Assembly: GCA_963669155.1 (NCBI GenBank) | Contig: OZ022584.1 | Span: forward strand, 4,440,724 to 4,504,723 | DNA length: 64,000 nucleotides | Reading direction: 5' to 3' | Origin: Arbacia lixula | Lineage: Eukaryota; Echinodermata; Echinoidea; Arbacioida; Arbaciidae | Shown here: positions 11,009 through 54,619 of the stretch, piece by piece | Layout of the letters: every line of letters begins with the position of its first letter | How positions within the stretch are numbered: position 1 is the first letter of the stretch | Program-made: the position numbers and the translations under genes | The notes under the pieces: model-generated | Database searches by the model: none | What the model was told of the DNA's origin: nothing | The model's input: the letters and a program-made list of their open reading frames with translations, nothing else

Positions 11009-11281
11009 AACCACCCAAGATCTCTGAAGAGGTGATCGCCATCCACAAAGCAGTGGTGGGCCGGACGGTCAAGCTGCGCTGTCCAGTGACAGGCAACCCC
11101 CCTCCGCTGACCATGTGGCAGAAGGATGGGGTGACCATCAACCGTGGCTGGGACCGCTTCAGGCTCAAACCAGAAGGCCTCAAGATCAGCCGGGTGGTCA
11201 TTGAGGATACGGGCACCTACGTCTGCCGGGCCACCAATGGCTTCGGCAGCATCAGCCTCAGCTTCAACCTCACCGTCACAG
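11009..11281 (+). CDS. FGFRL1: FGFRL1 exon: Ig-like domain 1
   Basis: The acceptor is a tcctcctgcag tract ending at 11008 and the donor gtaagg begins at 11282, giving 273 nt, phase 1 on both sides. The translation begins PPKISEEV and holds a complete Ig fold: cysteine in KLRCPV, tryptophan in LTMWQKDG, and the DTGTYVC motif followed by RATNGFGS. The PPPLTMW and ATNGFGS stretches are what I recognise as FGFRL1/FGFR Ig1. The missing first nucleotide comes from an upstream exon, presumably the signal peptide. Confidence 0.95.
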
Positions 11282-17200: not shown

Positions 17201-20200
17201 GAAAATGATTGGACATTCCTCTCCATTAGTGTGTGTTGGGAGGGGGGGGGGGGAATAATGGGGGGGGGGGGGGGGGGGGATATAGGCAGAGTAAACATGG
17301 GAGAAGGGAAAACAGAGGACTTCTAAAAGGGGCCGAAATTTAAGCCCCTCTCCACTCTGGGTGCCAGAGTCTGTGTAGAATGCAGACAAAAGAGCTGCCA
17401 TCTACATATGAAAGGACTGGGACTGTGGCTTGTAGGGTGGCTTGTATGCAACCCACATAGGCTGGGGCATGGCCAGGCTTATTTGTAGGGGGATTGAGAG
17501 GAGTGTGGAGAGGGCTGTGGACTTCTTTTTTGGCACCTCTTGCCTTGAATCTTCTTCCTTCTTTTCCTTGTTTCCCTTCTCCCTTCTCTATCTCCCTGTT
17601 AATGCGTCTTTTTTTATCTCTCTATTTCTTTCTCTCATCATCTCTCTCCTCTCTCTTTCTCTCTCTCTCTCTCTCTCTGTCTGTCTGTCTGTCTGTCTCA
17701 CTCTCTCTGTCTGTCTGTCTGTCTCACTCTCTCTGTCTGTCTGTCTGTCTCACTCTCTCACTCTCTCACTCTTTCTCTCTCTCTCACTCTCTCTCTCTCT
17801 CACTCTCACTCTCTTTCTCGCTCTCTTTCTCCTCGTCCTCTCCTTTTGACCATTCTACCCCGCTATGTGTCTATCCATCTTTATAAACTCCTTCCCTCTC
17901 AAGTATACAATGCATAAACCCATTACCCTCTGTCTTTCTTGGTCTCTCTTTACATAGTCCCTCCATATTTTTTTTAACTTTATCTATCTTATCTCAAATG
18001 TTTATCAAGTGCTGTTCCTCCTTCTTCTTTGCATACTTTCATTCTTCCCTTTCTCCTTTCTGCCTTTCACTCTCACATGTTCCATTTCTCTCCTTCACTT
18101 CAAATACCTATCTGTTCTCCCTCTCTCTCTTCTGAAGCTGAGATGTTTAAAGAAGAAGAAGGACAACGTTCCTTAAGATGGAAGAAGGACACGAAGGAAG
18201 GCAGGCAGAGATTCTCTCTGCTGAAATTGAGATCTTAGAAGAAAATGAAGGACAAAGTTTCTCCATTTTTAAGTTAAGATGTTAGAAGGAAATGAAAAAA
18301 GACATGAGTTGCTCTCCTCTTGAGTTGAGGTGTGAAAAGAAAATGGAGAAGGACAAAGTTTGACGGGGGTGGTGAGGAGAATAGAGACTTCACAACTTCG
18401 TGTTAAGTGGTGTGGGGCATTGAAGAAAGTGACTGCAATTAAGGAATGTGTGAGGGTGATTCAGGGGACGGAGGGTGGAGGACTCCTCAGCAAATATTGA
18501 ACATTGCTGCCTAAAACCACTCAGTTTGTCTTTCCCTGAATTTACATACATTCTTTATATCCTGACTCAGCACCTCAATTAGGAGAAGAACCTTTAATAT
18601 TTTTTTTTACCAACATCTGTCCTGACCTTTCACCTGTTTGCTGAAGGGGATTGGTCAGCTTTAGAAGGAATCAGGATGCGAGTTATTCTTTGTTGTCAAA
18701 TAACAGCTTCTGCATAAATTTCATTCTGGTATGTCTAGCTCCCAATATTTGTTTAAAGAAGTATTATCACTGAAGTTATCCAGGAAATAGCATTTGCTAT
18801 TTAGAATTACTGTAATTTTTTTTTCAGTTTGAATCATTCACTTATTTCAATTAAGATCATTTTACATCTCATGAAACACAAAATAGAACTCAGAGGGAAA
18901 CTTTGTAAAACACTTCGTATTTTTTTACATATTTCCTAAAATATGTGAATTAAATTGCATCTGACAATATACAGTGACACCTCTCTTTAAAGACTACCCC
19001 AAGAGGCAGTCTTTCTGGATAGGTGGTCTTTATAGACAGGTGTAATTACATGCACTCTGTTCTGTAGGAATTGAAGTTCAGTGGTCTTTACAGACAGGTG
19101 GTCTTTATAGACATGTGGCCTTTATAAATATGTTTTCCTGAACATGTATTTGTTGTAAGTAGCTATTACATTACTCACTCAATGGCATATTCTCTCTATT
19201 TTTCTCTTTACCTGTAATAGAAGAGGCGATAGTTGAAGCTGCCGCACCAAGTATCAACTCACCAGAAATCACAACGACAGGAAGTAAGTATCACCATGGC
19301 AACATTTGTGAATATACTTTTCCAATTCTGTTGGTCAAGAATTATAGCAGCTTAATTATTCTGTACCTGAGAGAACCCAGGGACAAGCAATCATACCAGT
19401 GAACCAAGCAATTACATTTATCTCCAGTGTGTTCCTACCTTGTTTCATTACAGTTGTTTTTTGCATCACTTCTGAAATTTGTAAGTGCCATGAATGAAAT
19501 GTGACATAAGGCATACACATACATCATGTATAGCAGTATTCAGGCTGGCGCTCAAAGGATTTAAAGGGATGTTTGACCCCTGACAGGATATTGCTTTCAT
19601 TAGCAGTAGAATGATCAAAATCTCAAAACATTGTATTATAAAAGTGGTTTGAATGTGGCTGGTCGGTGAAACCAGAAATGTCTTGTCACACCAAACAATA
19701 TAAGGCAAAAATGGCAGCGTTACAACTGAAGACCACCTGATTAGAGAGGAAGGGTGCAATTGGTAGAAGGGTTGGATGGTCACTGGTGTCCGTATTGTGC
19801 CACTGGTTTTTCTCACTTTAGTTGTAGCTAGTTGTTTCGGGGCAGGCCTTTCTCCCAGTTGCTACTGTAGTTCGCAGTCAATAAACCGGTTTAAATAGCA
19901 TATTCACATTTGATTTTATGCTTGGTAGTATCAAAATCTTTCTCCTCAAGCCTTGAATGCATCTTGTTGCTTTGATCAGGGAGGGAAGCATGCTGCTAGC
20001 ATACAAAACAGCTTTTGCTAAGTCAGGCAAACCTTAGGAACGTTTTTTGAGAAAGTAGCATGCATAAAGTGTGAATATGTTAGTAAACCAGTTTAGTTGC
20101 TGAGATGCCGGTGCTTGTAACGTCTTTCCTTCATTGCAGTAATTGTCATTCGGATGATGAAAAAAATATCACCTGGCGTCCTTTGCAATATTATTGTCCA

Positions 20201-23200
20201 GCAAGTTTGAATTTGTCACGTTGGCTTTGTAAAGGCAAGCTCAATTTCTGAATGGCTGTTGTTAATTAAACATGTTTTAAAGAACAGGAAGTGTGACATG
20301 TTCAGTAATATGTGGCATTGTAAATTGTAAATATGAAATGTAGGTATGCTCCAAGTAACTTTTTCATGCTATATGCCTTCACAGTTGGTAAAGTATGTAT
20401 GCTTTATGAGTAATGTAGGGAATCAGCCAAGATGACATTTATAGCAGTTACATGTAGGACCAGTCTTCAGCAATGCATGAAGTACTCTTGGTCTGATCAT
20501 CGTAAACAAACGGTGTGGTTTGAAAGACATTAGTCCAATATGTAGTGTATGGTGCGTAATGGTCTCACATCACTCGATTATTTTACATCATTCCATGTGA
20601 CACATTTTCTGTTTGATAATGACCTGGTCACAAGACTGGGGTCTGTTCAACCATTCGACCATTTGACCATTTGACCATAAAAGGATAACACTTAACCTAT
20701 ATTTTAATAGTTATATTAATCTTGTGCATTATAACAGTAACTGGTAGTTCTTATCAAATAAAAAAAGTACTTAAATTTAGCACAATTTTACAACAGCAGT
20801 TTCCACAGATGCGATAGTTTACGATTAGAGTGCATGTTTTTTGTCTGTATTGAAAGCACAAATTTACAAGCTTTTGGCTTTAAAACTGTTGTGCTTTTGT
20901 GAAGACTTTTGGTCTGAAAAATGTATCGTGCCAAGTGACAATTGTGCACTAGAATGAGCCATTTGAGAAGTGAATTTTGGAGTGCATTTTCCATGCCAAA
21001 TGGCAATCTTGCACTCGAATGAGCCATTTGGGAAGTGAGTTTTGGAGTGCATTTTCCATGTGTCTCGGAGTGACCATTTGTTTGTCTGTTTGTCACCCAA
21101 AGAATGAGTTTATAGGAGTTGTTACAATGTCAGTTCTCAGTTTTTATTTTGTCATTGGATTTAGATATCATCTCACCCTCCCTTCCTCATTTAGTTACTC
21201 CCCCTCTCAGCGCCATAATGACAACCCCTTTCACTCCTAATCATTCCAAGAGCCCTACTTACATGTATTGACCCATGACCTTTAGTCCCAGTAGAGGAGT
21301 AACCAAACCATTCTAGCATCTTAATCCTCATCACATTAAGAAACAAACTATTCCACACTTTTTCATTTCTCCTATTTTTTTCTCCATGTTTTCTCTCCCT
21401 GTTTGTCCGTCTGTCCGTCTGTCTGTCTGTCTCTTGTGCATGTCGTCTCTCCATCCGTTCCTTTCTCTGTGTTTATTATAGCAATGCCTCAATTTACTGA
21501 GCCGAGCAAAATGCTGAAGACCAAAAAGATAATGCAGCCCTTAAACAGTTCAGTGCGGCTAAAGTGCAAGGCCTCTGGCCACCCGCGCCCCGAGATAGTT
21601 TGGGAAAAGGACGGCATACGAATGGTCATTCCTGAGGGCAAGATGGGCAAGCAGTTCACTCTCAAGTTGAGCAACTTAAAGCCAGATGATAGCGGCTTCT
21701 ACACGTGTATAGTCTATAACAAGCACGGCGGAATAAACGCCACCTATGAGCTAGATGTAGTAGGTGAGTGATTCAGTCATACTACACACCTTCTCTCCTC
21801 TTGGGTGGCTTGTTAATCTCCTACTCTCACTTCCTATCTCTCTCTTGCTCTCTCTCTCTCTCTCTTTATCTCTCTCTCATGTCATTTCCTGAAACATAAT
21901 CTTACAAATTTGCAAGTTCAAGTTCAAGCTGCAACTTTCCAACATTGCCTATATTGATGTTTAAAAGAGACAAACTTTTAGAAGGTAGTGGTGGTGGTGC
22001 AATACAACAAATATTATTCATACATGTACTTGAAGTTAAAAAAAAAATGTGTCAAGTGTCATTGACAAGAAAAATGGCTTGTTTGGTTCTATGACTGGTG
22101 CAGTGTATAGCGCTAGTTCATAGAAATACATGTAGTTTGTTAGTACACTGTATTCAGTAGACTTTCTTTTTGTCTTGTGTGGCATTTATTGCATGATTGG
22201 CCTTCTCCCCTGCATTCTTCTTGTATCATCTTAGTGGTGGTGGTGTCTTGTTTTGATCATCTTGTAGTGACTAGAAATAAAAGGTCATTCTAACCATGGG
22301 CAAGGATGGTAACTCCATTGAATGATGCTGAATACACAGCTAATTTCAAAACTGCGTGGGCAGGTGTAGAGATTTGGAACTGTAGGTATGAACAGTGAAG
22401 GATGCGAAGCCATTGCCACAGGTAAATTAGGCAATGATTTGTTCCTTCACCATTCTTCTTCTTTAGAAGGAGAATTTGTCAATGCACAAATTATTGAAAG
22501 CGTGCAATATTTGTATGAAATAACTGTCAAACTTATAGCTGCCCTGAGTATGGATTCTCATTCTTCTCTTGATGGTGTATACATGTAGTGCAATGATACC
22601 AATAAGAGATGGGAATATGAAGGGGGAAAAGTGCACCTTGATTTGTTCAGATATGCAGTGGATTTGCAGCACCTTTGCACAGTCCTTTGTTTGCATGGGA
22701 GTTAATGCAGAAAGGTATCTCCATGGTAGAAATCATTGATTATTTTGAGCATGTCATTATGTTCAGTATCAGCTCATATGGGGGTAAGGGGTGTGTGAAA
22801 ATAGTATTGAAGGTCTAATCAGCTACTGCTTGTCACAAATACCCCAGGGCAACGTTGCATAAGTCTTAACATTGATGGTGACTTTGCTCCCAATGGCAAC
22901 TTCTCCAGAAACCTTGAATTTATCAAGTGATGTTACTCTGATAGTTACCATTGATAACAGGATTTCCATTAATGGTATGTTTGATGCCACAGGGCCCAGA
23001 ACCATCATCTGTGGAGAGGAATTAACCATGTGCCATTCTTCCTTTTTATTCCTGTCATGCCATCATCAGATAAAGTCAAGCGAAAGCCGGACCTGCTTGG
23101 TGAGCACCCGGTGAACACCACGGTGGCGTACGGTGGGAGCGCATCGTTCCAGTGCCGGGTACGGAGCGAGATCAAGCCTCACATCCAGTGGCTGAAGCGG

Positions 23201-25376
23201 GTGGAGACGTCGCGTGGGGCCACTCCCACCTCCAACGCCACCATCACCATGCGCAACCAGACGTACGTGGTGCTGCCAGCTGGCGATGTGTTACGGCGCG
23301 GCGACGACTCTTACCTGAACAAGATTGTGATTGGTTACGCCACGGCCGATGACGCGGGCATGTACATCTGCCTCGGGGCCAACAGCATGGGCTACAGCTT
23401 CAAGAGTGCATTCCTACAGGTTTTACCAGGTACACATTCCACCTCACAGCTTGCTTCCCTAACTGTGTGTTGAGTCACCAGTAGAGGGAGCCAGACTCTC
23501 TCTAGTGTCCATTTCACATGTGGCATGAACAAACACTATGTGAAAAGTCAGGACAGAAAGTTGTGGCCCTGCATGATCGCTTCTGTCAAGGGATATGGTA
23601 CTTAGATAAATGGACAAGGACAAGATTAAGATTTATAACAGAAATTTCTTGAATATATAGCGCAATAATTGTAATTAGAATGTATTGCCAACCCTACAAC
23701 TTATCTGGGTTGTATTCTGAAAAGAAACTGAAGTTTTTACAAAAAAAAAAATTCTTTCAACTTGAAGTCCCCTTCAATCTGATTGCTGCAGTGTTTCGAT
23801 CAGCTTTCAAAACACCACCCCTGGTTTTGAGTTGAACATGAATAGTTTGCCCAGAGTGTGCATCAGACTTGATGAGATGTTCTCAAGATATAAAGTTTTG
23901 ATCTAAATGCATAATTTAGATAAAATAATTTCCCGGCTGAAGTGCTGAAGTGCAGTGGATCAAAAGTTTAACCCTATATAGCACGTTTTTTTTTTAAATT
24001 GCATAGCCCAGAAGGGGGGGGGAGGGGGGAAAAAACATCCCCCCTCCCCTAAAATCTCGATCTTTGATCGTGCGATCGTAATGAAAATTGGCACTTACGT
24101 CACCCATGAAGTAATCTCCACAATTCAATTATCTATGCACCAAAATTAATTAATTAATTATGTTAATTAATGCATAAAATTATAGGATGGCTGTAAAACT
24201 TAAAATATAGCTCCAAAACTGCTAGATTTCAGTCCGGGCACCCTTCTTAGGATTATTATCAAATTAGGATTTTAAAAAATGGGAATATGACATTTTTTCT
24301 TAATGTGTTTTATTGTTTTTTTAATTTCTTGTGCATTTCTTCATGTTTTTCATTGTTTTTCTATGGAAATCGTTGGCAAAACTATTTCAGTCATAAATAA
24401 CATTAAAATCTATTGTTTTTCATAGTGAAAATAAAAATAATGATACATTTATGAATTTTGGCTAGATACAGAATTTGCATTGGATTTGTATATGAAATCA
24501 CGTTTTTAAGCAATTTTTGGTCTGACATGCATGTACAAAATGTTTCGTAACGTTAAAACTGCGTACCCCCGCGTCGCAAATTTGGTCTTAAAAGTTGCGT
24601 GAGACTTGGAGGAAAAAAGTCATGAAACATTGCGGCCCAATCTTTTTGTGTTACAAATTTATCGCGAAAAATGGCGAGGGGGGGAGTGCTGTTTTTGCCA
24701 CCCCTCCCCCCCCCCCCCCCCCCCCCCCCCCGGGCTAGATAGGGTTAAATCTTGATATACAGTGTAGTTAACAAATGCAGTTCAACTTGCATTTGAATTT
24801 GAATACTAATGAGTTGTTGTTTTTCTTCTCCCTCCCCCTCCTCACTTCCTAGATCCTAACCTGGCCGTGCCCACGTTACACCAGACACCTCACAGCCGGC
24901 CTGTAGAGCAGCAGGGTTGGAGTCAGACTGAGAAGGGCCTGCTGATCGGGGTCCCCCTCGGCCTCGCGCTCCTCTTCATAGTTGCCATTATCGCCTGCAC
25001 CGTCAGCCGCAACAAGGCACAGCAGCGCCACCGTAACGCCGCCACCCCACCCCCTCAACCCCACCCGCCCAACCACACGGTCAAGAAGGACTACGGCCTC
25101 CACCGTGACTACCTCCACCGCTCCAACCTCTCGCAGCCACAGAGCGTGGACTTAGAACAGTGCGCGCCACTGACCGCTGCCCAGTGTGCGCCCGTTGTGT
25201 CGCAACAAACTCTGCATATTTACCCCATGGCGAGTAGGGAAAATGTCTTGAATCGCTATGATGTCCACTCCCCGAGCAGCTTCACGGACACGCTGAACAG
25301 CAACGGAAGTCTAACCAGCAGCAGCCATCCCAACATGCATCACCATTTACATCAGCACACCATCCTCCACTGCTAG
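11009..25376 (+). CDS. FGFRL1: FGFRL1, fibroblast growth factor receptor-like 1 (5 exons seen, start exon missing)
   Basis: The coding span joins 11009-11281, 19221-19283, 21482-21763, 23070-23429 and 24853-25376. Every junction is phase 1 and the join reads 500 residues, close to the usual FGFRL1 length of about 500 once a signal peptide is added. Numbering from the first split codon, Ig1 is 1-91 (C25, W37, C73), a linker is 92-112, Ig2 is 113-206 (C141, W153, C188), Ig3 is 207-326 (C235, W247, C307), the membrane span is about 356-377, and the cytoplasmic tail is about 122 residues with no kinase. The tail ends in a His-rich stretch, a hallmark of FGFRL1. Family knowledge: a single-pass cell-surface FGF/heparin-binding receptor acting as decoy, adhesion or modulatory partner of FGFRs. 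Each Ig domain sits on one exon, unlike the FGFR on the other strand. The signal-peptide exon must lie upstream of 11009 and was not recognised. Confidence 0.95.
11313..11860 (+). repeat. degenerate tandem repeat starting 30 bp after the Ig1 exon
   Basis: The pattern tttattcag..aataaatgatgata..atgtttccagga recurs at about 11319, 11597 and, partially, 11819. A second shared word, ttggacttgcga..gattcagatcaac, lies at about 11542 and 11764. Units are about 220-280 bp; a G17 run interrupts the second. Confidence 0.7.
12874..13238. mobile_element. foldback (palindromic) element, about 180-bp arms
   Basis: The left arm (from taaaaggcatatactgtactgg) is reverse-complemented in the right arm (ending cccagtacagtatattcccttta). 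The words gcaatcttcttgccaatggtc and their complement, and ggttatttgccctaa and its degenerate complement, fall at mirrored places. The centre is ttgttcgggccgaacatt at 13051-13068. No coding capacity. A partial second copy is at 16505-16720. Confidence 0.85.
14570..14900 (+). repeat. CT-rich low-complexity tract
   Basis: About 330 bp of CT/CTTT/CCCT-rich sequence. Ser/Leu-rich frames over it are artefacts. Confidence 0.9.
16505..16720. mobile_element. second, truncated copy of the foldback element
   Basis: It shares the centre (aaatcctcaaaatgttcgg / ccgaacattttgaggattt) and the full right arm (taagaccattggcaaaaag, cccagtacagtatatgccctt) with 12874-13238. The left arm is retained only for about 30 bp. 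Confidence 0.85.
17590..17840 (+). repeat. CT / TCTG / TCAC microsatellite
   Basis: The tract contains repeated blocks of (TCTG)3-4 followed by TCACTCTC, a higher-order unit of about 32 bp seen about three times at 17683-17755. Confidence 0.95.
18975..19130 (+). repeat. short repeats of a gtggtctttatagacag-type motif
   Basis: At least four variants of ggtctttatagacaggtg occur (about 19023, 19081, 19099, 19115), with an opposed copy, taaagactaccc, at 18990. It ends about 90 bp before the linker exon. It may be a fragment of a mobile element. Confidence 0.6.
19221..19283 (+). CDS. FGFRL1: FGFRL1 exon: short acidic/alanine-rich linker between Ig1 and Ig2
   Basis: This 63-nt exon follows a ttacctgtaatag acceptor and ends at a gtaagt donor. 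It is phase 1 on both sides, so inclusion or skipping keeps frame. It encodes 21 residues starting [10 protein letters not shown] and ending in a threonine-rich stretch. The position matches the acid-box linker of FGFRs, but it holds only three to four acidic residues. It could be a cassette exon. Identification rests on splice signals and phase, since so short a linker has little family signature. Confidence 0.8.
19284..21481 (+). other. FGFRL1 intron (2.2 kb) between linker and Ig2 exons
   Basis: AT-rich, no further exon seen. It holds a 65-bp tandem duplication at 20926-21060 and a short (TCTG)n stretch just before the Ig2 acceptor. Confidence 0.8.
20926..21060 (+). repeat. two-copy tandem repeat, unit 65 bp
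   Basis: The unit begins gccaartggcaat and includes gaatgagccatttg and gttttggagtgcattttccatg; copies start near 20931 and 20996. Divergence is about 10 percent by eye. Confidence 0.85.
21482..21763 (+). CDS. FGFRL1: FGFRL1 exon: Ig-like domain 2
   Basis: The 282-nt exon lies between acceptor tttattatag and donor gtgagt, phase 1 on both sides. It encodes a complete Ig domain with cysteine in RLKCKASG, tryptophan in EIVWEKDG and the DDSGFYTC motif. A lysine cluster ([10 protein letters not shown], residues 121-130) occupies the place of the heparin-binding helix of FGFR Ig2. A (TGTC)n tract lies about 60 bp upstream of the acceptor. Confidence 0.95.
21764..23069 (+). other. FGFRL1 intron (1.3 kb) between Ig2 and Ig3 exons
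   Basis: No extra exon recognised. It contains a short CT tract (about 21840-21880) and an interspersed repeat at 22845-22998 shared with the FGFR intron at 43643-43783. Confidence 0.8.
22845..22998. mobile_element. short interspersed repeat (MITE-like), copy in FGFRL1 intron
   Basis: It begins cagggcaacgttgcataa and ends atgccacagggccc, so the ends are roughly inverted. The inner words cattgatggtgactttgctcc and caatggcaacttctccagaaacc match the element at 43643-43783 almost base for base. Confidence 0.65.
23070..23429 (+). CDS. FGFRL1: FGFRL1 exon: Ig-like domain 3
   Basis: The 360-nt exon starts after catcatcag and ends at donor gtacac, phase 1 on both sides. It encodes an Ig domain with cysteine in SFQCRVRS, tryptophan in HIQWLKR and the DDAGMYIC motif followed by [15 protein letters not shown], the typical FGFR-family Ig3 end. 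Sequons at NTT, NAT and NQT are visible. In the FGFR gene the same domain is split over two exons; here it is unsplit, so an IIIb/IIIc-type choice is not possible at this locus. Confidence 0.95.
23430..24852 (+). other. FGFRL1 intron (1.4 kb) between Ig3 and transmembrane exons
   Basis: More than half is a single 773-bp TTAA-flanked element (23972-24744). No alternative exon was seen that could give a secreted form. Confidence 0.8.
23972..24744. mobile_element. TTAA-flanked MITE, piggyBac-like (copy in FGFRL1)
   Basis: The element is bounded by TTAA at 23968-23971 and 24745-24748, with terminal inverted repeats CCCTATATAGC and GCTAGATAGGG. Inside each end is a G-rich or C-rich block that can pair with the other end. 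It has no ORF. The TTAA target duplication and CCCT ends fit piggyBac-type elements. A relative lies at 50639-51389. Confidence 0.75.
24853..25376 (+). CDS. FGFRL1: FGFRL1 terminal coding exon: transmembrane segment and His-rich tail
   Basis: The acceptor is ctcacttcctag and the exon continues in one frame to TAG at 25374-25376. It encodes a juxtamembrane stalk, a hydrophobic span ([20 protein letters not shown] core) followed by SRNK as stop-transfer, and a tail of about 122 residues. The tail is rich in Pro, His, Ser and Asn and contains several tyrosines ([17 protein letters not shown]). It ends in a cluster of eight histidines among the last sixteen residues ([17 protein letters not shown]). 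There is no kinase domain. The His-rich end is a recognised FGFRL1 feature. Confidence 0.95.
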
Positions 25377-26122
25377 CGACGCATCCCAGTCAACGCTGGC
25401 TCATAGATAGTATTTTTATATCAAACTTTTTGACACAAAAATGATCAAGTCAGAACAAAGAGTAGAAAGAACATGTAGTCCCAAACATGCCTTTTTATGT
25501 TGCTGTCCTTTTCACCTATCTGTGGAGGGTACGGTTTCTGGCCTGGCATACACAGATAGGCTTGTACATTTTGCTCATAGACTTATGTATAGAGAGATTT
25601 ATGAGAGCAGTGTGCAGGTATTTGTCTAGTCATATATAGAGCGGTATGACGTCCAAGAAATCTGTTTTCTCACAACGTGTGCACTGGGGTGCAAGTGTGT
25701 GTTGTTGTGCCTATGGCTCTTTGTGCATAAACTATAAATAGTTGTAACTAAAGATATTTATATATATTATTATTATTATTATTAAGACTAAATTAACTCC
25801 TATAGCTGTATAGCACTCTTTGAAATACAACACCTCTGCTGATTAATCGAGAAGCTCATTTTTACCAGTATTCGGGGAATTAGTCGGGCTCTTTATTAAT
25901 TATTATTTAAAATTTATTACTACAGGCGAGAATTGTATTTCCCTGCAATGATATCTCACTGTTGTATTTGCTTGAATATTTAGCTCTATTTCTTGCTCTG
26001 GTTTAGCAAACATTTAAGAACAGAAATGTTGGGAAAAGTTCCCGAATGTTCTTCAGTTCAGATATCTTTCTATTTACCATTGAAAAGCTCCAGAGAGAGA
26101 AATTGGGGACCTGCTAGTAGAG

Positions 26123-26166
26123 CTACCTCTTTCTGCATGTGTGAACTCACATGCAGAAAGAGGTAG
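26123..26166 (+). repeat. perfect 19-bp hairpin in the FGFRL1 3' UTR
   Basis: The arms 26123-26141 and 26148-26166 are exact complements with a 6-nt loop (tgaact). The left arm starts CTACCTC, the complement of the let-7 seed. Confidence 0.85.
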
Positions 26167-27044: not shown

Positions 27045-27200
27045 CAGGGTGTATATCATTGAGACAATTGATTGCAGCCAATCAAGAAGAGTGTACCATA
27101 ATGGACCTTGTTGAGGTAACTGATAGCAACCAATGAGGATGAGTGTACCATAAAGGGGCTCATCTATACAATGAATTGCAGCTAATCAAGGTAAGTGTAT
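27045..27200 (+). repeat. degenerate tandem repeat, unit about 55-65 bp
   Basis: Variants of gattgcagccaatcaagaagagtgtaccat occur at about 27069, 27122 and 27174. Confidence 0.6.
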
Positions 27201-30638: not shown

Positions 30639-30676
<38 letters not shown>

Positions 30677-37832: not shown

Positions 37833-37842
37833 GGGGCGGGGT

Positions 37843-37959: not shown

Positions 37960-40900
37960 CTGAAAATTTAGAAAAAAAGTGAAGAGAGTCATGTAAAAAC
38001 AAACAAATCCAAGGTATCATACATAGTTTACAAGTATTTGATTATCCTGTTAATTTAAATACTCTTTGTATGGAGCTCACATTTTATTTCCACAGGAATT
38101 TGTAAGCATAATATAAACAATTCAATTTCACTAAAAGCATTAATATTATCATCAGTGTAATCCTTATCATAATCAGTGTAACAACTACTTTCATTAGTGC
38201 TGATGTCCCTATCATCTTAATCGGTATAATCATCCTTATTTGCAAAGAGAATTCTTTCCCAGAGTAAGATTCAAAAACCTTTGAGTTGGGGTAATGGAAA
38301 ATGTACCTGGTTTGACGAGACAGAGATAATGCGGTCCAGTTCAGTACACTATCATTTTCGTAAGAACTGATATCATCATCACCTTCATCATTATTGTCAT
38401 CCATATTTGCACTGTGAACTCTTTATTAGAGTAAGATAAAGCTTGTGAGTTGGGGCAAGGGATAACGTACCTGGTTTGATGAGACTGAGATGATGCGGTC
38501 CAGATCCTCCACCAGCTCACTGAAGTTTGGTCTCTGTCCGGGAGAGGTCCTCCAACACTCGCACATGATGTGGTAGCTATGGCAACAGAGGAAAGACAGA
38601 GAAACACACATTCAAAAGGCTATGGGCTCAGCATAAACAGCGTGTAGCAGAACTGGATTCTCATCACCAAAAATTACAATAATGTCTATGACAAAATAAA
38701 TCAATACGTATACAATAAAGGTTGAAAGGGATGAACACGTTGTTCACACTTTGATTTCTGTCTTCGTGAACTCTTGTCCTTGTAGGATGTCCACATTTGC
38801 CATGGAACTGTAGTAACCAATAGGGTGTGGCTTAAAATCACCCAACAGGTTTTCACAATTTAAAGTTTACTCATAGTCTACTGTCTGTAAAGGAGATTAT
38901 GCAAGAGTGGTCATGCTTAGTTTCTGATAGGAAAAAGCCATCCCACAAATACACGGGCTCAGTAAAGAATGGGTGAAAAGGGAGGGGCGCTCACATTTCG
39001 AGGGAGGTGTTCTGGGGCTTCTCCAGCCGCTTGCCGGACCTCAGGTAGTCAAACATCTGCTCCACGGGTACGCTGGGGTAGGGGGTTCCCCCCAGCGTCA
39101 TTGTCTCCCACAGCAGGATGCCGAAGGACCACACGTCGCTCTGCGTGGTGAACATCCGGTCAAACAGAGCCTCGGGAGCCATCCACTTCACTGGCAGTCG
39201 CCCCTACAGGGGAGAAGGACGGGGAGAAATGGAAAGCGGGTCAACACGGTGTTTGCCTTTAAAGCTGTGATGGCATCTTATAACTATTGTGATCGTGATT
39301 CTGTTTGTTAATTTAACATTCTCAACACGATATACTAGAAGAGAGAAAAATAAATCACCCATTGCATATTTCAGTGTTACAGTTCTTTAAAATTTGAAGT
39401 TAACAAATTATCCTAGTCACTTGCTGACTGGCACCCCTACTACGGGAATATAAAATGGATGTTGCTGATATCCAAAGACAGCAAACATTAGGGGGGCTGG
39501 GGGGGGGGGGGGGGAGGGGCATTACCCCTATGTAGATCATGTCAGCCTTATAAAGGGTCTCTTTCAGTAGGTATGGGGGAAACAATTCCCCTCTTCCCTC
39601 ATGTCTTTCTGAGCATGAAGGCTCCTAAGACTGCTTGAGGACTTGCAGCTTACATCTGTGGTCTTGCGGTAGAAGTCGATGTAGTGGATGTCTCGGGCCA
39701 GCCCAAAGTCACAGATCTTCATCTGGAAATCTTCCGTCACCAAGACGTTCCTGGCTGCCAGATCTCTGTGGATGCACTGCAGAAGGCAAGGACAGGAAAC
39801 AATCAGACATCGCTGATCATAAAATCCATCTCATATCAATTATTTCTTCTCTTTCCTGTTATCAATGTTTCTGCCTCAAAACCTTTCAAAAATATGAGGT
39901 TTCCTTCTCCAAAATGTCTGTACAACTTTATGCTGTAATTCATTATCTGTATAGACATACACAACTTTAAAAATGTTTGGAAACTCAATTGTTTGATTAT
40001 AGCTCAGTGATTGTTTTGCTGTCATCAAGAAAAGTGTTATCGTTTTCCCCATCAGAATATAAGGCATAGGTCTTGCAGTGGACTTTGTCGGTCAAAGTCA
40101 GTTATCCTAACCAGCCTTAAGGATGGGTCAATAATGCCCAGTGACCGTGCACTTACCCTCTTAGATGCAAGGAACTCCATTCCTCTGGCCACCTGGTAGG
40201 TCATGGACATCAGGTCCTTGTTGGTCAAGGTCTGGGCTGCGGTCAGCAGCACGGATCGCTCGTATTCTTCGGGTGGACGACGTGACCGCAGGAAGTCTCG
40301 CAGGTTGCCGTGGTGAGCAAACTCAACAATGACGTATGGGGGTCCTGGAGGGAGAAGGAGGAAGGAAACCAACAATTGGGTTTTTATAAAAGCCTTTTGT
40401 AAGAAGCCTGCTTTACAGAAACATTTTCAATATTTATGTGTTCTTTTAATCATTACATTTATATTGAAGAAATGAGAGGATTTTTATGACACCAGTATGA
40501 GCTTTGTGCGTACTTACTCTCTCCTGGTTCTAGAAAATAAGGATATCAACTGGTAAGGAAGCTTAGTGTGGAGTTCTGGTGTCATGTATAACATATTTCA
40601 AGTGTTTCATTTCATGACATCAGGCTTCAACAATAGCCGAAGCAAATATTTGTAATTGGTTCCTCTGGCTCTCAGAGTTGGCAATGCTGCTGTGATTTTT
40701 TGGAGATGGTCTGGAGAGCGCTTTGCTTACCTTCTTGCGTGCAGCAGCCGAGCAGGTTGATGATGTTGGGGTGCTTGCCAATCATCTTCATCATACATAG
40801 CTCAGAGATCAGGTCAGACAGCTCACGGTCCATGGCATTAGCTGGGCAGAAGATGGATAGGGAGATTGATAGATCGCTTGCTTGATTGGTACATTGCATT

Positions 40901-43900
40901 ATATAATACTTGATTGATTAAATAATTGATGGTGCATTAACTGATTGCGTGATATATTGATTGACTGATTTGATTGTTTCATTGATAGATTGATTTAAAG
41001 ATAAGGTCATAGTTTCATCCTTTGATACATTGAATGTTTAAAACCGTGTTTGATGCATTGATTTGATACAGTGTAGGTAAACTGATATATTGATTCATTG
41101 ATTGAAATTCATGAATGGGATCAAAAACCACAAATCCTTTAACCATCAAGATTAAACAACGATTTGATCAGAAGTATCCAATATCGTGTGTCCAAGAGCA
41201 ATGCATGCTGGGATACCCTTCCCATGAGCCTTTACCTTTGAGCATCTTGACGGCTACAGTGCTGGTCTTCTCTTGGCAGACGATGCCTACGGCTTCTCCG
41301 ATCACCACTTTACCAAAGGCTCCTTCTCCTATCGTCTTACCCACCGTCAGCCTACAAAGAAAGTTGGATTAACTTTTAAGTTTCTCCTATAAATTGTGTA
41401 CCCTAAAATATGGTGAATACGTCTAAATGTGAAAAAGGGTGCATTCAAATTTAGTCTCCCAGAAAGAGACTTGAAAATATATGTTGTAATATATAGTCTC
41501 GTATGGGAATTTCTTAAGTTTACATATCAAAAACCTCATTAGTGACATTCAAGTATTAATTTACAAATTCACGCCGAAAGAAATATACAAGGGAATAAAT
41601 AATCTAGGCCTCTTACTACCAAGCCAGGAAAAGCCTATAGACTTATTACATTTTGCGTGCACCTATGGTACTGAGAAGATTGTTCCAAATGGACCAAACA
41701 AAAATATAACCAGAATAATTCAGCAGTGTCTAAATGAATATAATTTCCCCTTTCACTGCTGTATGTTTGTGGGGGCTTCTCAGCTTTGCACCCCCCCCCC
41801 CTCCCCACCCCGTCCTGAGCATGTTTCGCCCCACCCACCTGTCTCTGGGAAACTCCCACTCTGGGTCCAGGGGGATGTCGTACTCCGAGATGACGGTCAG
41901 CGAGGAGGTCAAGCGGGTTCGGCCAAACAGAGGGGCGTTGGACTTGGTCGAGTCAACGGACATCTGGTAGAGACACAAGCAATTGTGAACATAGACTTAT
42001 TAATTCATTCAAATCATTCTACAGGTGGGTATCCCACTAAATCCTGGGGGGTAACTTAAAAGTACATCCATTATATTCATATCTTTTTCCATTTCTGAGA
42101 AAAGATGAGATATGCTTCAGAGACATGCATAGAGCTGTGTTTAGAGTCCGCCACAACCACTTGATACCTAACTGTGAAATTGAAGGCTAAATGGCCTTCT
42201 GGGTTGAACCGTTGATCAGTTTTCAAGTGCTTTCTGTCTGCTCCATCAGGTTTTGACCCTGATTTTAATCGAGAAGTGAAGAAGGGTCTTTAACATGCTG
42301 AGAGTGTGCCTCTTCCATTCACTGAACCTCCATTTAACGTTTTATTTTCTGATGCATGTGGAGGCATTGATCCTCTTTCTACAGCTGTGCAACATGAAGT
42401 TTTTCATCATTTAATCTTTGTTGCCCTTTTCGTTTATAGCCTTATTATAAGCATTTTTTTTGTGTTAACTAAGTTCATGTCAATATGTATAGCATCATTA
42501 TTTGTACACAGGGCCCCATGGTAAAACAGTGCAAGCTTACTGAAAGGGCTGCACTGTATAAGAAAGATTGAATACATAAAATATTGAATCACTAAATCTG
42601 AGGGATGGAATAGGAGCATACCTGTCGGTATGCCAGGGGCTTGCTGATGCCAGGCTTGTCTCCTGGAGGTCGCTGATGACGGACCTGGGTCTGACGGCAC
42701 AGAATGATGATGCAGCTGAGCAGGATGAAGATCACCAGCGTGCCCACCACCCCGAAGATGATGAGGGGCGTCTTTGACCTGTCCAGGGGTGTCTTGGGGA
42801 TGATGACGGCCGGCGGATGGGCAGGGGGTCGTTGCGTAGTCACAGCAGCTGTAAGATAGATGGAGGGAAGATTTACACTCATTATGATGAACATGATGCA
42901 TTCGACTTTGAAGTACATGTGCGCTAGGATCATTTGAGCTGTTAGAGAAGTCATTAATGGGCTTAGTGCCGTGACCTCCATAGAGGTATATGAGATGCTT
43001 CTAGCGTTGTCATGTTCATGATTAACTTGGTAACAAATTGCAGTGTTCTCCTAACCAAAAGTATGAAATAGATGGCTCTGATAACTTTATCTCTGCAATG
43101 AGGGTTATTCACATTTCTCAATTCACTCTTGTCCAAGCCGCTTTGGGTGTTATCACTAGTAAAGTTTAACCTGATTCAGAGACCATCTGGATAGACCGAC
43201 CACCTTCCTGTAAAGACTACATTGGTTGTTTCCCTTCAATGATATTCAAAATGAAACCTGCATTTAAAGGTAGCTCGTCCCTTTTGCAGACCTAATTCTG
43301 AAAGTTCCCTGACTTTGTTATCATTTGAGAGAAAATGGCTACATAACCTTTCCCTTGAATCAACAAAACGTAATATTTGGCTTTGAGGAAATAATCTTCG
43401 ATGAATGATCCAGCTTTCTTTTTTCATACCACGAAAATAATCAAATCTCAGTGAAAACTAGTTAGATTTTCACTTATTCTATGGGAGTTATAGTACCTCT
43501 GACCTTAAAATTTCACAATTGGTATCCCAAAGATAAGTGCTAAATATGTGCAAACTTTCATGAAATTTGCCGATGTTTGTAAAAGGGACGGGCCATCTTT
43601 AAGTAATCTGTACCACTAAAGACTATCTGCCCATATAGTCCATGGCCATATTACATAACAAACTTTAATACCATTGATGATAACTTTGCTACCAATGGCA
43701 ACTTTTGTGGAAACCACGATGTTACCAAGGTAGTTACCATAAATGGCAGAGTGAACATTAATAGTTTTATGCAACAGGGCCAATATATATTGTCTCCTCT
43801 GAGGGGTCTTTCTATACAGGTTTCATTAGGGCAGCGGTTTTCAACTCACGATCAAGGACTGTCAGGAATGTTTCCTCCCAGCTAATCCCATAGTAGTTGC

Positions 43901-45257
43901 CTGCTCCGCACACATACATCCCTGCATCCGCCTTGGTCACGTTATACAGCACCAGCTGGTTGGCCTCCTCGATGCTCTTTGGTGTATCAAGCTGCTCAGA
44001 GAGAAACCAGCCAAGAACTCACAATTAGGCACTAAACCTCCATGGGTTTGGACACCCTATGGTAACTAGGATCACTCTGTAAGCATTTGTGTACCAGATG
44101 AACTGTTTCTCTTCAGGGATTGTGTGTATTACAGGTGAAGAAACTCACTTGTAGCACTCAGAGAGTTAGGTGTCATATTCATGAGACATTACTAAGCTGC
44201 ATGAAGTTTTAGCAGCTTGCTAGGTTAGAATCGTTTTGTGAATATGGTCCTAGGCTACCAGGAGTCACATCAGAAGTAATACATGAATCTGAGGATATGT
44301 TAGGCATATCTCTGTATGGTTGCACAAGGCTTTAAACTCGCATTTGGCATTGGCTAGTGATTGGTGACTGAGTTACCATAGTTACCATAAGGCACCTTGC
44401 AATCTAGCAGGGTATCGTTCACATACACCTGCTTAATCACCACAACAACGTAGTCGTCTTTTCTTCACTTTGCTTACACAAAAAACATTTTCAGTATTTT
44501 GAAGTCGAATCTAAATTTAAGGTAAATGCTTTTTGCAATTAATGGATCATGAAATCTGTTGCCTTTTTTTGTGCATCATTTACAAAAACCCTGATAAAGC
44601 GTGTCCACTGGTACCTCCAATTCAATAAGTGTAATTACATTACATGTCTACAAATTGATTTAATAGTTAAGGAAGACTTTTACACTTTATATTCATGTGA
44701 CTTGAATACTAGTTTGATCACGTAGGTTATCATATGGAATGTTTCTGTAAGAATTTGTTGCAATCTTTGAACATTATGCTACTTTCGTTAGAACTGTAAA
44801 AACCTATTCAATCTGGATCTCTACCAAAAATTACATAAGCACAGAAAAGTGACAGCATATTAAACAAATTGATACATTGTAATTGAAAAACTGTGCAAGA
44901 TGTGTGGAGAGTATCTACACAACATACAAAGTTTAAACCATGTTGCCCAGCTTGTGCATAGATGGGTACAATTTACATTTTTTTATATCTTTTAACAATC
45001 CATGTTCAGAGGGCATTCGTAGTGATCTTTCTTTAGTAAATTTACATGCCAAAAGAATGATATTTTGTGCAAAGCCTCATATACATTTTCTAAAACAAGA
45101 AGAAACATACAAAGTGATTTTTTCAAAGCACTGTGAAGTGAAATAATACATCATACAATAGACATGAAAGAATGCTTTGGAGATATAAAAGTGCAACCAT
45201 TTAAGAGAGGGTGAGAGACAGAGAGAGAGAGAGAGGAGGAGGAGAGGGCAAGAGAGC

Positions 45258-46034: not shown

Positions 46035-46099
<65 letters not shown>

Positions 46100-52000: not shown

Positions 52001-54619
52001 ACATGCCTCATGCAAATTAAAAGAGGGTTCGGCATTGCCGCGGTTTTTGCTAGACTCACCTCCAGGAGCTTGATGTGATTCTCGACATCGACCACGGTGG
52101 TGTTGGAGTTGCCGTTGTGCCGCAACCAGGCGAAGTGGGGGGTGAGGTCGCTGACAACCCGGCAGACGAAGGACACATTGGACCCCACCACGGCCGTCAC
52201 GTTGGGGATCTTGGACATGATAGGCTTCACCGCCAGCCGTTCTGAGAGGACAAACAGGAAACAAGTAACAATCAACCTATCCTTTACTGAGCTCACATTT
52301 ATTCATGCTGGCTTTTCTCTGCTCCATATACAGGAAAGCTTGAATCCAGTGTAATCTGTTGTACTGACAATAGCGATATGCTATGAATAAACTTCTAATT
52401 ACTTACCTGGCACAATAAAGCCATGCCCATTTGGTTACTGCAGTTCCATGTTAAATGTTGACATCCTAACTGGACTGGGATTCATAAAGCCTGAAAGCCT
52501 GAAAGTCTAACTGTGAGAAATAGGCTAAAACCCTGAATCACCAGATTTGTACCTCCACTGGCCGACATGGGCAAATACTTTGCAAAAGTGATAGTTGCAC
52601 ATGTAACAAAGTCATGAGAGACTCCCATGGCTAATTCTTTGGTGCAAATTACTACATGGGACAATAGTTTGAAATGCCAGGACATGGAGCCGAAGATTAC
52701 AAATGATAATCAACATTTTTACTTTTGTATGTTTGTTTCTTTTTAACATTCCAATCAAATCCTTAGAAAGGATCCAATGTAGAACACCCTTGCCATGCTC
52801 TCTGCTTAAGTTTCTGGTTTCCCAAGTGAGAATTTTCTGCTGGTTCTTACCGGTAACCTTGACATCATAGCTGAACCGAATGGTGCCATAGATGTTGCTG
52901 ACAACGCAGGTGTACTTGCCCGTATCCGAGACAACCGCCTTGCGAATCTTCAGAACGTACTCCTTCTTCTCCATCTGGCCACACACAAACCAATAAAATT
53001 ACGCAAAATTTGGACTCATATCATTCAAGAATGCAAGACATCATATCCATACACATACGATTATTCATTGCGCTTCAATAGAACAATTTTCATATTCATT
53101 TTGAAAATAATGAGAAAATTTGTAATGTCATAATTGAATTAAAGGGAATAGGTAAATTCAAAAAGCTTGATATTCTACCCGTCCAAAACATACTAAGAAC
53201 AATATAATTCCACTCTAAGTCAGTTTCCTTCTCTTATATTGTGACGGAAGTTCTTTTACAGTATTTTCTTCCATTTTCCGTGGTTGGTACAATTTTTTTT
53301 TTACCCGTAAATGGGCTACAATGTCTTTGAGCGATTGGTATACTGGTTGTAAATCATTGCACATGTTTATGACTGGCTATGAGTGGTTGTTAGAGGTTAA
53401 TGTAATGGTTGCGAGTGGTGTACCCATTTGTACAAATATTTTTTTTATTGACGTGCAAAAGGGCTTCCCTGTCCGTGAATGATAGGTTTTCCAGTTGTGA
53501 GTTTTTGAACATGGTTAGGAGTAGATATGAGTGGCTGTGAGTGGTTCGTGTAATGGTTCTGAGCTGCATACCCGCGAGGCCCTGATGATGTGGTCCTCCC
53601 AGTCTGCCCGGTTATCCTTGAGCCAGTGGATGGTGGGCTTGGGAAAGCCCCGGGCGTGGCAGGCCAGCTTGATGTTGGTAGTGGAGGGGAGGGGCCTGTC
53701 CGGCTCCATGTCCTCCATGTGGACGAACGAGGGGGCCGACCCCGCTCCATTGGTCCCATTCAGGGTAAGGTTGGTACCCAAGCTACCCTGGTCTGGCCCC
53801 TCCTCTTCAACCGACGAGAAGGATTCCACGATGCTCGATTCGTCATACGGGTCAAACAACTCATCTACAGATTAGAAATAAAGGAAGAGCAAAACCACTT
53901 TGATTGAACAGTAGTAATATAAACAGTACTGATAATCAGTACATTATTTCACCACTTATCAGTTACTGGATCAACTTAAACCATCATATTAATTTTCTTG
54001 TACAGATTTCACTTGAAAATATATTTTAAACAAACTTGATTAAGAAGTACTAAAGATTAATAAATACTACAGCACTGCTCCAAATACTCAAGGGTTAGTC
54101 TAAATCTACTTAAGAAATTTATGTTATGGGAGATATTATATAAAATATTTACACGCTTTTAACAAAAAATGATATCAATCACCGACTAAATAAAAACAAA
54201 TCAAAATCAACTGAAGAGTAAAAATCTAGCATGCACTACATGTATTTGGCTTTTTGCAAACTGCTCCTACACTAGTTCATGCAGTTCACAAAGCTTGAAT
54301 GAAACATTCGGCTACTCGCGACTGCTCTTTGGCTAGTTCTTACCCATGGCCACCACCGTGAAGTTGACCTGGACGGTGGGACCGAAGCCGTTGGAGGCCT
54401 TGCAGGTGTAGACGCCAGCATCGGACTCGCGCAGGTACTCGAAGACGATGGCCGTCCTGGTGAAGGTCACATTGGGGTCCTTGGTGTTGAGCAGCACACC
54501 GTCCTTCATCCAGGAGGTGTAAGGCCGCGGGTCCGCCTTGACGGGGCACGGGATCCGGTGCTGGCTGCCCAAGCTCAGCTCCACCACATGCTTGAAGTTG
54601 CGCCGTAACGTGGGGGGTT
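37843..54619 (-). CDS. FGFR: FGF receptor tyrosine kinase (14 exons, start exon missing)
   Basis: In gene order the exons are 54619-54344, 53864-53572, 52974-52851, 52241-52060, 43991-43850, 42848-42622, 41963-41839, 41351-41236, 40841-40731, 40344-40157, 39776-39654, 39203-38995, 38576-38471 and 37959-37843. All phases agree and the join reads 779 residues. Numbering from the first split codon: Ig1 1-92, acid box about 93-118, Ig2 to 231, Ig3 232-339, membrane span about 368-390. The kinase has P-loop GEGAFGKV 465-472, lysine 492, helix-C glutamate 509, HRDLAARN 598-605, DFG 618-620 and APE 645-647. Tyrosine 743 lies in YLDL, the phospholipase C-gamma docking motif. All catalytic residues are present, so an active receptor is expected at the plasma membrane signalling through Ras/MAPK and PLC-gamma. 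Intron positions match vertebrate FGFRs. The signal-peptide exon was not found between 54620 and 64000. Confidence 0.96.
38176..38503 (-). repeat. two-copy tandem duplication, unit about 164 bp, spanning an exon end
   Basis: Copy 1 (about 38176-38339) and copy 2 (about 38340-38503) share catcc.tatttgca, agagtaagat, gtgagttgggg..., and the block gtacctggtttga.gaga.tgagat.atgcggtccag at an offset of 164. Copy 2 contains the last 33 nt and donor of the real FGFR exon; copy 1 is intronic. Confidence 0.9.
38471..38576 (-). CDS. FGFR: FGFR exon: kinase C-terminal helices
   Basis: The 106-nt exon (acceptor ttgccatag, phase 2; donor gtacgt, phase 0) encodes [18 protein letters not shown] and [17 protein letters not shown], the end of the kinase domain. 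Its last 33 nt and donor are duplicated 164 bp downstream in the following intron. Confidence 0.96.
38995..39203 (-). CDS. FGFR: FGFR exon: kinase APE motif and C-lobe
   Basis: The 209-nt exon (acceptor ctcccctgtag, phase 0; donor gtgagc, phase 2) encodes [29 protein letters not shown] and [17 protein letters not shown], then KPQNTSLE. All typical C-lobe motifs of FGFRs are present. Confidence 0.96.
39654..39776 (-). CDS. FGFR: FGFR exon: catalytic loop and activation loop
   Basis: The 123-nt exon (phase 0 on both sides; acceptor gccttctgcag, donor gtaagc) encodes [23 protein letters not shown] and [11 protein letters not shown]. The catalytic aspartate and DFG are intact. The activation-loop tyrosine pair of vertebrate FGFRs (DYYKKTT) reads DFYRKTT, so the first tyrosine is phenylalanine, while a new tyrosine appears three residues earlier (HYID). 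Confidence 0.96.
40157..40344 (-). CDS. FGFR: FGFR exon: kinase hinge, insert and helix E
   Basis: The 188-nt exon (acceptor ccctccag, phase 1; donor gtaagt, phase 0) encodes [20 protein letters not shown], a kinase insert containing one tyrosine (PPEEYERS), and [20 protein letters not shown]. The gatekeeper is valine, as in FGFRs. Confidence 0.95.
40518..40529 (-). CDS. FGFR: candidate 12-nt FGFR kinase microexon (unproven)
   Basis: Between the beta-4 exon and the hinge exon, AACCAGGAGAGA is bounded by a good acceptor (ttattttctag) and a full-consensus donor (gtaagta). Both neighbours are phase 1 and the length is a multiple of three. Inclusion would change CTQE-G-PPYV to CTQE-EPGER-PPYV, a net gain of four residues just before the hinge. 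Support is splice signals and phase only; twelve bases carry no homology signal and chance is possible. Confidence 0.35.
40731..40841 (-). CDS. FGFR: FGFR exon: kinase helix C to strand beta-4
   Basis: The 111-nt exon (acceptor cttctgcccag, donor gtaagc, phase 1 on both sides) encodes [20 protein letters not shown] and [12 protein letters not shown]. The helix-C glutamate is in LISEL. The vertebrate glutamate after it is a cysteine here (ELC). Confidence 0.95.
40848..41110. repeat. cryptic TTGA/GATT-rich repeat
   Basis: Dispersed gattgatt, ttgattga and tgatagattgat units through about 260 bp of an FGFR intron. Confidence 0.7.
41236..41351 (-). CDS. FGFR: FGFR exon: kinase P-loop and catalytic lysine
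   Basis: The 116-nt exon (phase 2 to phase 1; acceptor actttctttgtag, donor gtaaag) encodes [20 protein letters not shown] and ends TVAVKMLK. Both the glycine-rich loop and the ATP-binding lysine are intact. Confidence 0.95.
41839..41963 (-). CDS. FGFR: FGFR exon: juxtamembrane segment
   Basis: The 125-nt exon starts phase 0 after gtctctaccag with MSVDSTKSN and ends phase 2 before gtgggt. It includes [17 protein letters not shown], the conserved lead-in to the FGFR kinase. The first two residues, MS, stand where vertebrate FGFRs have the alternatively spliced VT pair needed for FRS2 binding. The methionine is internal. Confidence 0.94.
42622..42848 (-). CDS. FGFR: FGFR exon: transmembrane segment
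   Basis: The 227-nt exon runs from acceptor tatcttacag (phase 1) to donor gtatgc (phase 0). After a Pro-rich stalk ([16 protein letters not shown]) comes a hydrophobic span, residues 368-390, beginning [13 protein letters not shown] and closed by [10 protein letters not shown] as stop-transfer. It ends KPLAYRQ, matching the vertebrate junction just before the FRS2-binding juxtamembrane region. Confidence 0.94.
43643..43783. mobile_element. short interspersed repeat (MITE-like), copy in FGFR intron
   Basis: It runs from ggccatattacataa to ttttatgcaacagggcca, with inverted ends and the inner words ccattgatgataactttgct and aatggcaacttttgtggaaacc shared with 22845-22998. Confidence 0.65.
43850..43991 (-). 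CDS. FGFR: FGFR exon: second half of Ig3 (IIIb/IIIc equivalent)
   Basis: The 142-nt exon starts in phase 0 after ctctgagcag and ends in phase 1 at donor gtgagt. It encodes [12 protein letters not shown], then [11 protein letters not shown] and [17 protein letters not shown], the closing half of Ig3. Only one copy of this half was found, so the vertebrate IIIb/IIIc pair is not present. The acceptor is gagcag; use of the upstream gag would add one glutamine in frame. Confidence 0.93.
45210..45292 (-). repeat. (CT)n on the FGFR sense strand
   Basis: (GA)n on + with GGA interruptions. Confidence 0.95.
46038..46105 (-). repeat. (CT)n on the FGFR sense strand
   Basis: Nearly pure (GA)n on + for about 50 bp, then GGGAGA units. 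Confidence 0.95.
47258..47359 (-). CDS. FGFR: candidate FGFR alternative cassette exon inserting 34 residues into Ig3
   Basis: Inside the long intron that splits Ig3, 102 nt of - strand sequence lie between an acceptor ending gggggagtag and a donor gtattg. It is phase 0 on both sides and open throughout in the receptor frame. It starts [14 protein letters not shown] and ends LLECLHLVQ, with two cysteines and an NTT sequon, so inclusion would add exactly 34 residues between IKLLE and LDTPKS. The acceptor has a poor, G/T-rich tract, as expected for a regulated exon. From memory, unverified, a published sea-urchin FGFR has long and short Ig3 forms differing by about this many residues, which is the main reason for the confidence given. 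Confidence 0.75.
48175..48242 (+). repeat. (CA)n microsatellite
   Basis: Interrupted CA/CG/CCA repeat. The Thr/His and Val/Cys frames over it are artefacts. Confidence 0.95.
50639..51389. mobile_element. TTAA-flanked MITE, piggyBac-like (copy in FGFR)
   Basis: It is bounded by TTAA at 50635-50638 and 51390-51393, with ends CCCTAATACTC and GAGTATTAGGG. Inner G and C blocks lie near each end. Internal words (tttattgtttttcaatttt, cataaatttggtatcaaaa, agaaaaaagtcaagaaa) correspond to similar words in 23972-24744 in the same order, so the two are one family. Confidence 0.8.
52060..52241 (-). CDS. FGFR: FGFR exon: first half of Ig3 (IIIa)
   Basis: The 182-nt exon runs from acceptor gtcctctcag (phase 1) to donor gtgagt (phase 0). 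It encodes RLAVKPIM, the Ig3 entry, with [15 protein letters not shown] and FAWLRHNG giving the first cysteine and the core tryptophan, and ends IKLLE. Sequons NVT, NVS and NTT are visible. The exon ends at the conserved IIIa junction, followed by an 8-kb intron that holds a candidate alternative exon. Confidence 0.94.
52851..52974 (-). CDS. FGFR: FGFR exon: second half of Ig2
   Basis: The 124-nt exon starts in phase 0 after gtgtggccag with MEKKEYVL and ends at a gtaaga donor in phase 1. It contains the SDTGKYTC motif and [15 protein letters not shown], the typical end of FGFR Ig2. The split of Ig2 at this place matches vertebrate FGFR genes. The methionine at the exon start is internal, not a start codon. 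Confidence 0.94.
53572..53864 (-). CDS. FGFR: FGFR exon: acid box and first half of Ig2
   Basis: The 293-nt exon runs from acceptor taatctgtag (phase 1) to donor gtatgc (phase 0). It starts with an acidic linker ([13 protein letters not shown], then VEEEGPDQ), equivalent to the FGFR acid box, followed by two overlapping sequons (NLTLNGTNG). The Ig2 half has cysteine in IKLACHARG and tryptophan in TIHWLKDN. Where vertebrate FGFRs have a basic heparin-binding segment, this protein reads [10 protein letters not shown], which is acidic. Confidence 0.94.
54344..54619 (-). CDS. FGFR: FGFR exon: Ig-like domain 1
   Basis: The 276-nt exon lies between acceptor ctcccctcag and donor gtaaga, phase 1 on both sides. 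It opens with PPTLRRNF and carries cysteine in RIPCPVKA, tryptophan in TSWMKDG, and the SDAGVYTC motif followed by KASNGFGP. That ending closely resembles Ig1 of the neighbouring FGFRL1 (ATNGFGS). A 740-bp CAY microsatellite begins about 100 bp upstream of the acceptor. Confidence 0.94.

Follow-up and report, generated by a model that had tools for sequence, protein, structure and literature searches.

FGFRL1 and a kinase-bearing FGFR lie tail to tail in the echinoid Arbacia lixula

Results

The stretch of DNA analysed here, a window of 64 kb from the echinoid Arbacia lixula, carries two intact paralogous receptor genes that stand tail to tail with no intervening gene detected. One is FGFRL1 on the forward strand, which within the FGFR family is the member without a kinase, and the other is an FGFR with a tyrosine kinase on the reverse strand. 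Spliced gene models for both confirm the convergence described in the initial annotation, which had FGFRL1 ending at 25376 and FGFR at 37843, about 12.5 kb apart. The interval between the two stop codons (25377..37842) measures 12,466 bp and should contain the 3′ UTRs of both genes. Within the limits of the tests run, these two genes make up the coding content of the window. The initial coordinates hit the Ig I exons and the stop codons exactly; the true gene starts lie further outwards. As described below, the signal-peptide exons of FGFRL1 and FGFR were not found, so both genes must extend beyond their first modelled exons.

The FGFRL1 model consists of five exons that are open throughout and flanked by AG/GT splice sites, encoding 499 aa up to a TAG stop. 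The protein has three Ig domains and a transmembrane segment, the latter identified by eye from the translation; the tail behind it carries no kinase. Exon 2 (11009..11281, +; 273 bp, phase 1-1) encodes Ig domain I, and its enclosing ORF matches the Pfam family I-set with 2e-16. Ig domain II is located on exon 4 (21482..21763, +; 282 bp; I-set 3.8e-14) and Ig domain III on exon 5 (23070..23429, +; 360 bp; I-set 1.8e-9), which gives three stretches of I-set in the ectodomain, with each Ig domain on one exon and every junction in phase 1. The linker between Ig I and Ig II is assigned to exon 3 (19221..19283, +; 63 bp). This is the weakest exon call, being the second of 12 candidates ranked by acidity and picked because its 3′ end resembles exon 3 of Strongylocentrotus purpuratus. 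Exon 6 (24853..25376, +) encodes the transmembrane and cytoplasmic part with a histidine-rich C-terminus (six His among the last 12 residues) and the stop codon; its 174 aa to the stop matched no Pfam family at E 0.1. The closest PDB match of FGFRL1 is the FGFR3 ectodomain (6.8e-43), and no FGFRL1 chain occurs among the best 60 of 200 matches. A comparison of the ectodomain with bacterial and archaeal contigs gave 51 pattern places and no confirmed match, as expected for an animal gene. One FGFRL1 intron contains a 65-bp unit in two head-to-tail copies (20929-21060).

A scan of the 10.9 kb upstream for an ATG followed by a hydrophobic stretch and a phase-1 donor gave no convincing signal-peptide exon for FGFRL1, the candidates at 4821 and 5897 (+) being unconvincing. 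The GC-rich segment 1751-2250 shows the highest CpG observed/expected ratios in the left flank (0.95 and 0.77) and may hold the promoter and first exon of FGFRL1; no signal peptide was seen within it.

The FGFR model comprises 14 reverse-strand exons between 54619 and 37843, joined at AG/GT splice sites and closed by a TAG stop. It encodes 778 aa with three Ig domains, a transmembrane segment and a tyrosine kinase, and nothing is missing between Ig I and the stop. The kinase matches Pfam PK_Tyr_Ser-Thr with E=1.1e-96, and the comparison with human FGFR1 (8jqi_B) gave E=1.7e-180. In the direction of transcription, the ectodomain begins with the exon for Ig domain I (54344..54619; enclosing ORF: I-set 3.6e-11), followed by one exon for the acid box and the first half of Ig II (53572..53864), the second half of Ig II (52851..52974) and the two halves of Ig III (52060..52241 and 43850..43991). 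The acid box between Ig I and Ig II has 10 D/E within the 26 residues after Ig I, as counted on the translation. The transmembrane exon (42622..42848) and the juxtamembrane exon (41839..41963) lead to the kinase, which is distributed over exons for the glycine loop and VAVK (41236..41351), the N-lobe (40731..40841), the hinge and kinase insert (40157..40344; enclosing ORF: Pfam kinase 1.9e-11), the catalytic and activation loop (39654..39776, with 11 motif residues), a further kinase part (38995..39203, likewise with 11 motif residues) and the end of the C-lobe (38471..38576). The last coding exon (37843..37959) holds the C-terminal tail with DYLDL and the stop codon. The kinase motifs looked for, 15 residues in all, are present.

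Two adjacent tyrosines in the activation loop are typical of FGFR kinases but do not define them. The loop on exon 39654-39776 reads DFYRKTT compared with DYYKKTT in human FGFR1, the first tyrosine being replaced by Phe; one tyrosine of the usual adjacent pair is kept and the kinase is otherwise complete. No further copy of the IIIb/IIIc type was detected for the second half-exon of Ig III; at E<1 it matched, besides itself, just Ig III and Ig I of FGFRL1 within the window. The intron that follows the penultimate FGFR exon contains a degenerate tandem duplicate of this exon's 3′ end and splice donor (38292-38510), with 17 aa at 71% identity (38342-38292) and a DNA alignment that extends into the intron. 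Upstream of 54619, no convincing signal-peptide exon was found for FGFR by the same combination of ATG, hydrophobic stretch and phase-1 donor. The candidates on the reverse strand, one at 55777 and many within a microsatellite at 54.7-55.5 kb, were not convincing. This long ATC/GGT-rich microsatellite (54736-55507; 63-bp consensus, 11.6 copies) lies about 120 bp upstream of the Ig I exon. Since two FGF receptors with full domains have been reported in echinoderms (PMC8180256), a second FGFR should be located elsewhere in this genome.

Further genes in the gap and flanks were searched for by a coding-score scan, based on codon usage trained on FGFRL1 and FGFR and compared with a null of 200 sequences, and by a Pfam scan of ORFs. 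Among the matches listed, the exons of the two genes and their mirror frames rank highest. In the gap, the top scores of 12.5, 11.8 and 10.3 (null 95% point 9.1, null maximum 11.6) are three frames of one C-rich tract at 37757-37842, directly behind the FGFR stop, and the next score of 10.1 falls in a transposon-like palindrome. The best scores in the left flank were 12.4, 12.4 and 11.3 against 11.8; in the right flank the best two, 167.8 and 64.5, both lie inside the 54.7-55.5 kb microsatellite and are followed by 10.6 against 9.1. As a positive control, models trained on the other gene scored the 14 FGFR exons at 6.4 to 51.3 and the five FGFRL1 exons at 3.4 to 61.9. As real exons score as low as 3.4, a gene composed only of very short exons could escape detection in the gap.

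The Pfam scan took in 30 of the 87 ORFs of the window, namely 10 that hold exons and 20 others (seven of them in the gap), and none of these 20 reached a curated cut-off. Seven of the 12 gap ORFs of at least 100 aa were scanned; the other five belong to a TC repeat at 30.2-31.2 kb. A weak match to mitochondrial carriers at 27822-28151 (-; E=0.03), which scored 14.5 bits where 22.3 are required, was rejected because it lies inside a palindromic transposon-like element. This element (27834-28334) has arms of 46 nt that are 87% complementary (27837-27882 and 28201-28246) and carries further nested arms. Across the whole window, neither Rfam at gathering thresholds nor a tRNA scan gave a match. 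The initial statement that no gene lies between the two receptors agrees with the outcome of the coding-score scan and of the Pfam scan of gap ORFs.

The relationship of the two receptors was studied at the level of single domains and of whole ectodomains. Domains of the same rank score highest between FGFRL1 and FGFR (52.8 bits for Ig I, 50.1 for Ig II and 55.5 for Ig III), and in either gene each of the three Ig domains ends at a phase-1 junction. The initial annotation had pointed to Ig I domains that start with PP and end with A[ST]NGFG, and these letters are present as described in both genes. The likeness of FGFRL1 Ig I to FGFR Ig I (52.8 bits) is barely above that to FGFR Ig II (48.1 bits), so the NGFG motif says little and is no special sign.

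The human FGFRL1 sequence used in the tree and in the BLAST comparisons is a provisional one. In an unrooted tree of six ectodomain sequences, the two FGFRL1 rows separate from the four FGFR rows with a support of 100. The ectodomains of FGFRL1 and FGFR from the window are 28.5% identical, compared with 54.5% between FGFRL1 of the window and the provisional human FGFRL1. Because of the provisional row, the tree serves as a lead that the split of FGFRL1 and FGFR may predate that of echinoderms and chordates. Published orthology and the exon plan point the same way (PMC2754479, PMC2806250).

Raw scores run counter to this: in BLAST comparisons, the FGFR ectodomain of the window reached 162 bits with the provisional human FGFRL1 and 141 bits with FGFRL1 of the window, compared with 127 bits for human FGFR1 and 128 bits for FGFR3, both of which lack the start of Ig I in the rows used. 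For Ig I alone, 32 of 90 positions (36%) are identical with the provisional human FGFRL1, and 16 of 68 and 17 of 72 (24%) with human FGFR1 and FGFR3; these two human receptors share 18 of 67 positions with each other. The FGFRL1-like character earlier ascribed to Ig I of this FGFR is therefore real in terms of identity (36% vs 24%). Rapid divergence of Ig I among vertebrate FGFRs accounts for it no less well than a local event would.

Discussion

Linkage of FGFRL1 with FGFR genes has been known in print since 2009 (PMC2754479). Bertrand et al. 2009 place FGFRL1 near FGFR1 (sea urchin), FGFR3 (human) and htl and btl (Drosophila); in Nematostella, C. elegans and Ciona they report FGF8/17/18 genes, rather than FGFR, in its vicinity (PMC2754479). 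The same source proposes linkage of FGFR, FGFRL1 and FGF8/17/18 in the ancestor of bilaterians and suggests that FGFR and FGFRL1 may stem from a duplication that shortly preceded the split of diploblasts and bilaterians. Its threshold for linkage is a distance under 10 Mb, from which adjacency in other animals does not follow (PMC2754479). The locus described here is probably the FGFRL1-FGFR1 pair reported for sea urchin. An ancient duplication with linkage preserved in at least two deuterostome lineages, as put forward in the initial annotation, is supported by the paralogy, the tree and the linkage published for sea urchin, human and fly (PMC2754479). This was the one paper on the linkage that the literature search brought up. 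No statement of a direct or tail-to-tail adjacency of FGFRL1 and FGFR was found in the literature searched, a search that had figures and most subscription papers outside its scope.

The convergent adjacency could be ancestral or the product of a later local inversion. A local inverted duplication of an FGFR, of which the tail-to-tail pair would be the relic, was the origin of FGFRL1 favoured initially. We regard it as unlikely, although the convergent neighbours without a detected gene between them, their homologous Ig modules and the phase-1 junctions in both genes speak for it, as does the linkage known from an echinoderm, a vertebrate and the fly (PMC2754479). The two halves of the locus were compared at the DNA level (10,001-31,600 vs 31,601-56,000; blastn, E 1e-3 or better) and gave no antiparallel homology, only three short same-strand matches that lie outside the exons. 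As survival of such homology is not expected at this age, its absence is weak evidence against an inverted duplication. The FGF8/17/18 neighbours reported in place of FGFR in Nematostella, C. elegans and Ciona (PMC2754479) speak against it as well. So does the orientation in human, as set out next.

Human FGFRL1 and FGFR3 are both on the forward strand, in tandem, separated by about 0.8 Mb and many genes; given this order, convergence would have been either lost in human or gained here. Such a loose linkage, under 1 Mb, would suit a pair of any orientation that once lay further apart and that a local inversion, or loss of intervening DNA, brought together in the echinoderm lineage. The 2009 survey, which counts any distance under 10 Mb, leaves room for this as well (PMC2754479). 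No mark of a breakpoint was seen in the window, and we give this later juxtaposition close to, yet somewhat below, an even chance. A recent duplication within echinoderms could appeal to adjacency alone and is extremely improbable: the 28.5% identity between the ectodomains of the window falls far behind the 54.5% shared with the provisional human FGFRL1, and the structure of FGFRL1 with one exon per Ig domain is common to Nematostella and human (PMC2754479). On the grounds of ectodomain identities, exon structure and literature it was rejected.

Taken together, the locus very probably represents the echinoderm form of a very old duplication whose products have remained linked on one chromosome in several bilaterians; the convergent spacing of 12.5 kb is most simply one arrangement of this old pair. 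How the pair arose is not revealed by the locus, while the known picture is sharpened by it. Direct adjacency in an echinoderm provides a firm landmark for tracing the origin of FGFRL1 in chromosome-scale animal genomes, and it suggests where shared or antagonistic regulation could be sought.

Regarding function, family membership suggests that FGFR signals via its kinase, and both the 15 motif residues and the DYLDL tail have been preserved. FGFRL1, which has the Ig part for ligand binding but no kinase, may, judged by its family, temper or modify FGF signalling; a role as decoy receptor has been proposed for the family. An overlap of the FGFRL1 and FGFR 3′ UTRs in the gap is possible. The S. 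purpuratus FGFRL1 mRNA has a size of about 8.5 kb on a Northern blot, of which the authors estimate about 6 kb to be 3′ UTR (PMC2806250), and a UTR of this length would reach to about 31-32 kb of the window, half of the gap. AATAAA signals are located at 31572, 32256 and 32272; the frequency of this signal in the gap is near chance, with 11 seen and 11.2 expected on the forward strand and 13 and 10.1 on the reverse strand. It appears very improbable that the genes have been convergent neighbours since the founding duplication, with long 3′ UTRs that meet or overlap and through which the receptor and its kinase-less antagonist would restrain each other's transcripts.

Comparison with known systems

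For FGFRL1 of S. purpuratus (FN252817), Zhuang et al. 2009 provide an exon table with boundaries and sizes (PMC2806250). The exon plan, the phase-1 junctions and the sizes of exons 2 and 4 (273 and 282 bp) are the same in both species, whereas exon 3 has 84 bp there and 63 bp here. Exons 2, 3, 4 and 6 were compared; exon 1 was left out as not found here, as was row 5 of the table, which repeats the acceptor of row 4 and gives 281 bp against 360 in the window. The first ten bases of these exons are identical at 7, 4, 9 and 9 positions and the last ten at 6, 8, 10 and 7, so that one of eight exon ends is identical and seven show 1 to 6 mismatches in ten bases; exon 3 has the same donor as its S. 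purpuratus counterpart. The S. purpuratus protein ends with six histidines in twelve residues, three of them consecutive (PMC2806250), and the protein of the window shares these six histidines with three consecutive, together with a Leu-His-Cys end. This near but incomplete agreement of exon boundaries, exon sizes and tail points by itself to an echinoid, or at least an echinoderm, distinct from S. purpuratus.

The FGFR of the window aligns with human FGFR1 (8jqi_B) over residues 21-759 of its 778, covering the Ig part, the transmembrane segment and the kinase. In human FGFRs, the acid box and the first half of Ig II are encoded on separate exons, in contrast to the single exon found here (53572-53864). 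The activation-loop tyrosine pair of human FGFR1 differs by the Phe at the first position in the window.

At the level of gene order, the sea urchin FGFRL1-FGFR1 pair is of the same kind and lies close together; it is described as "close", meaning under 10 Mb, with neither orientation nor distance stated (PMC2754479). The direct convergent adjacency is a useful refinement of this known linkage. In human, at 4p16.3, FGFRL1 is likewise linked to an FGFR, namely FGFR3.
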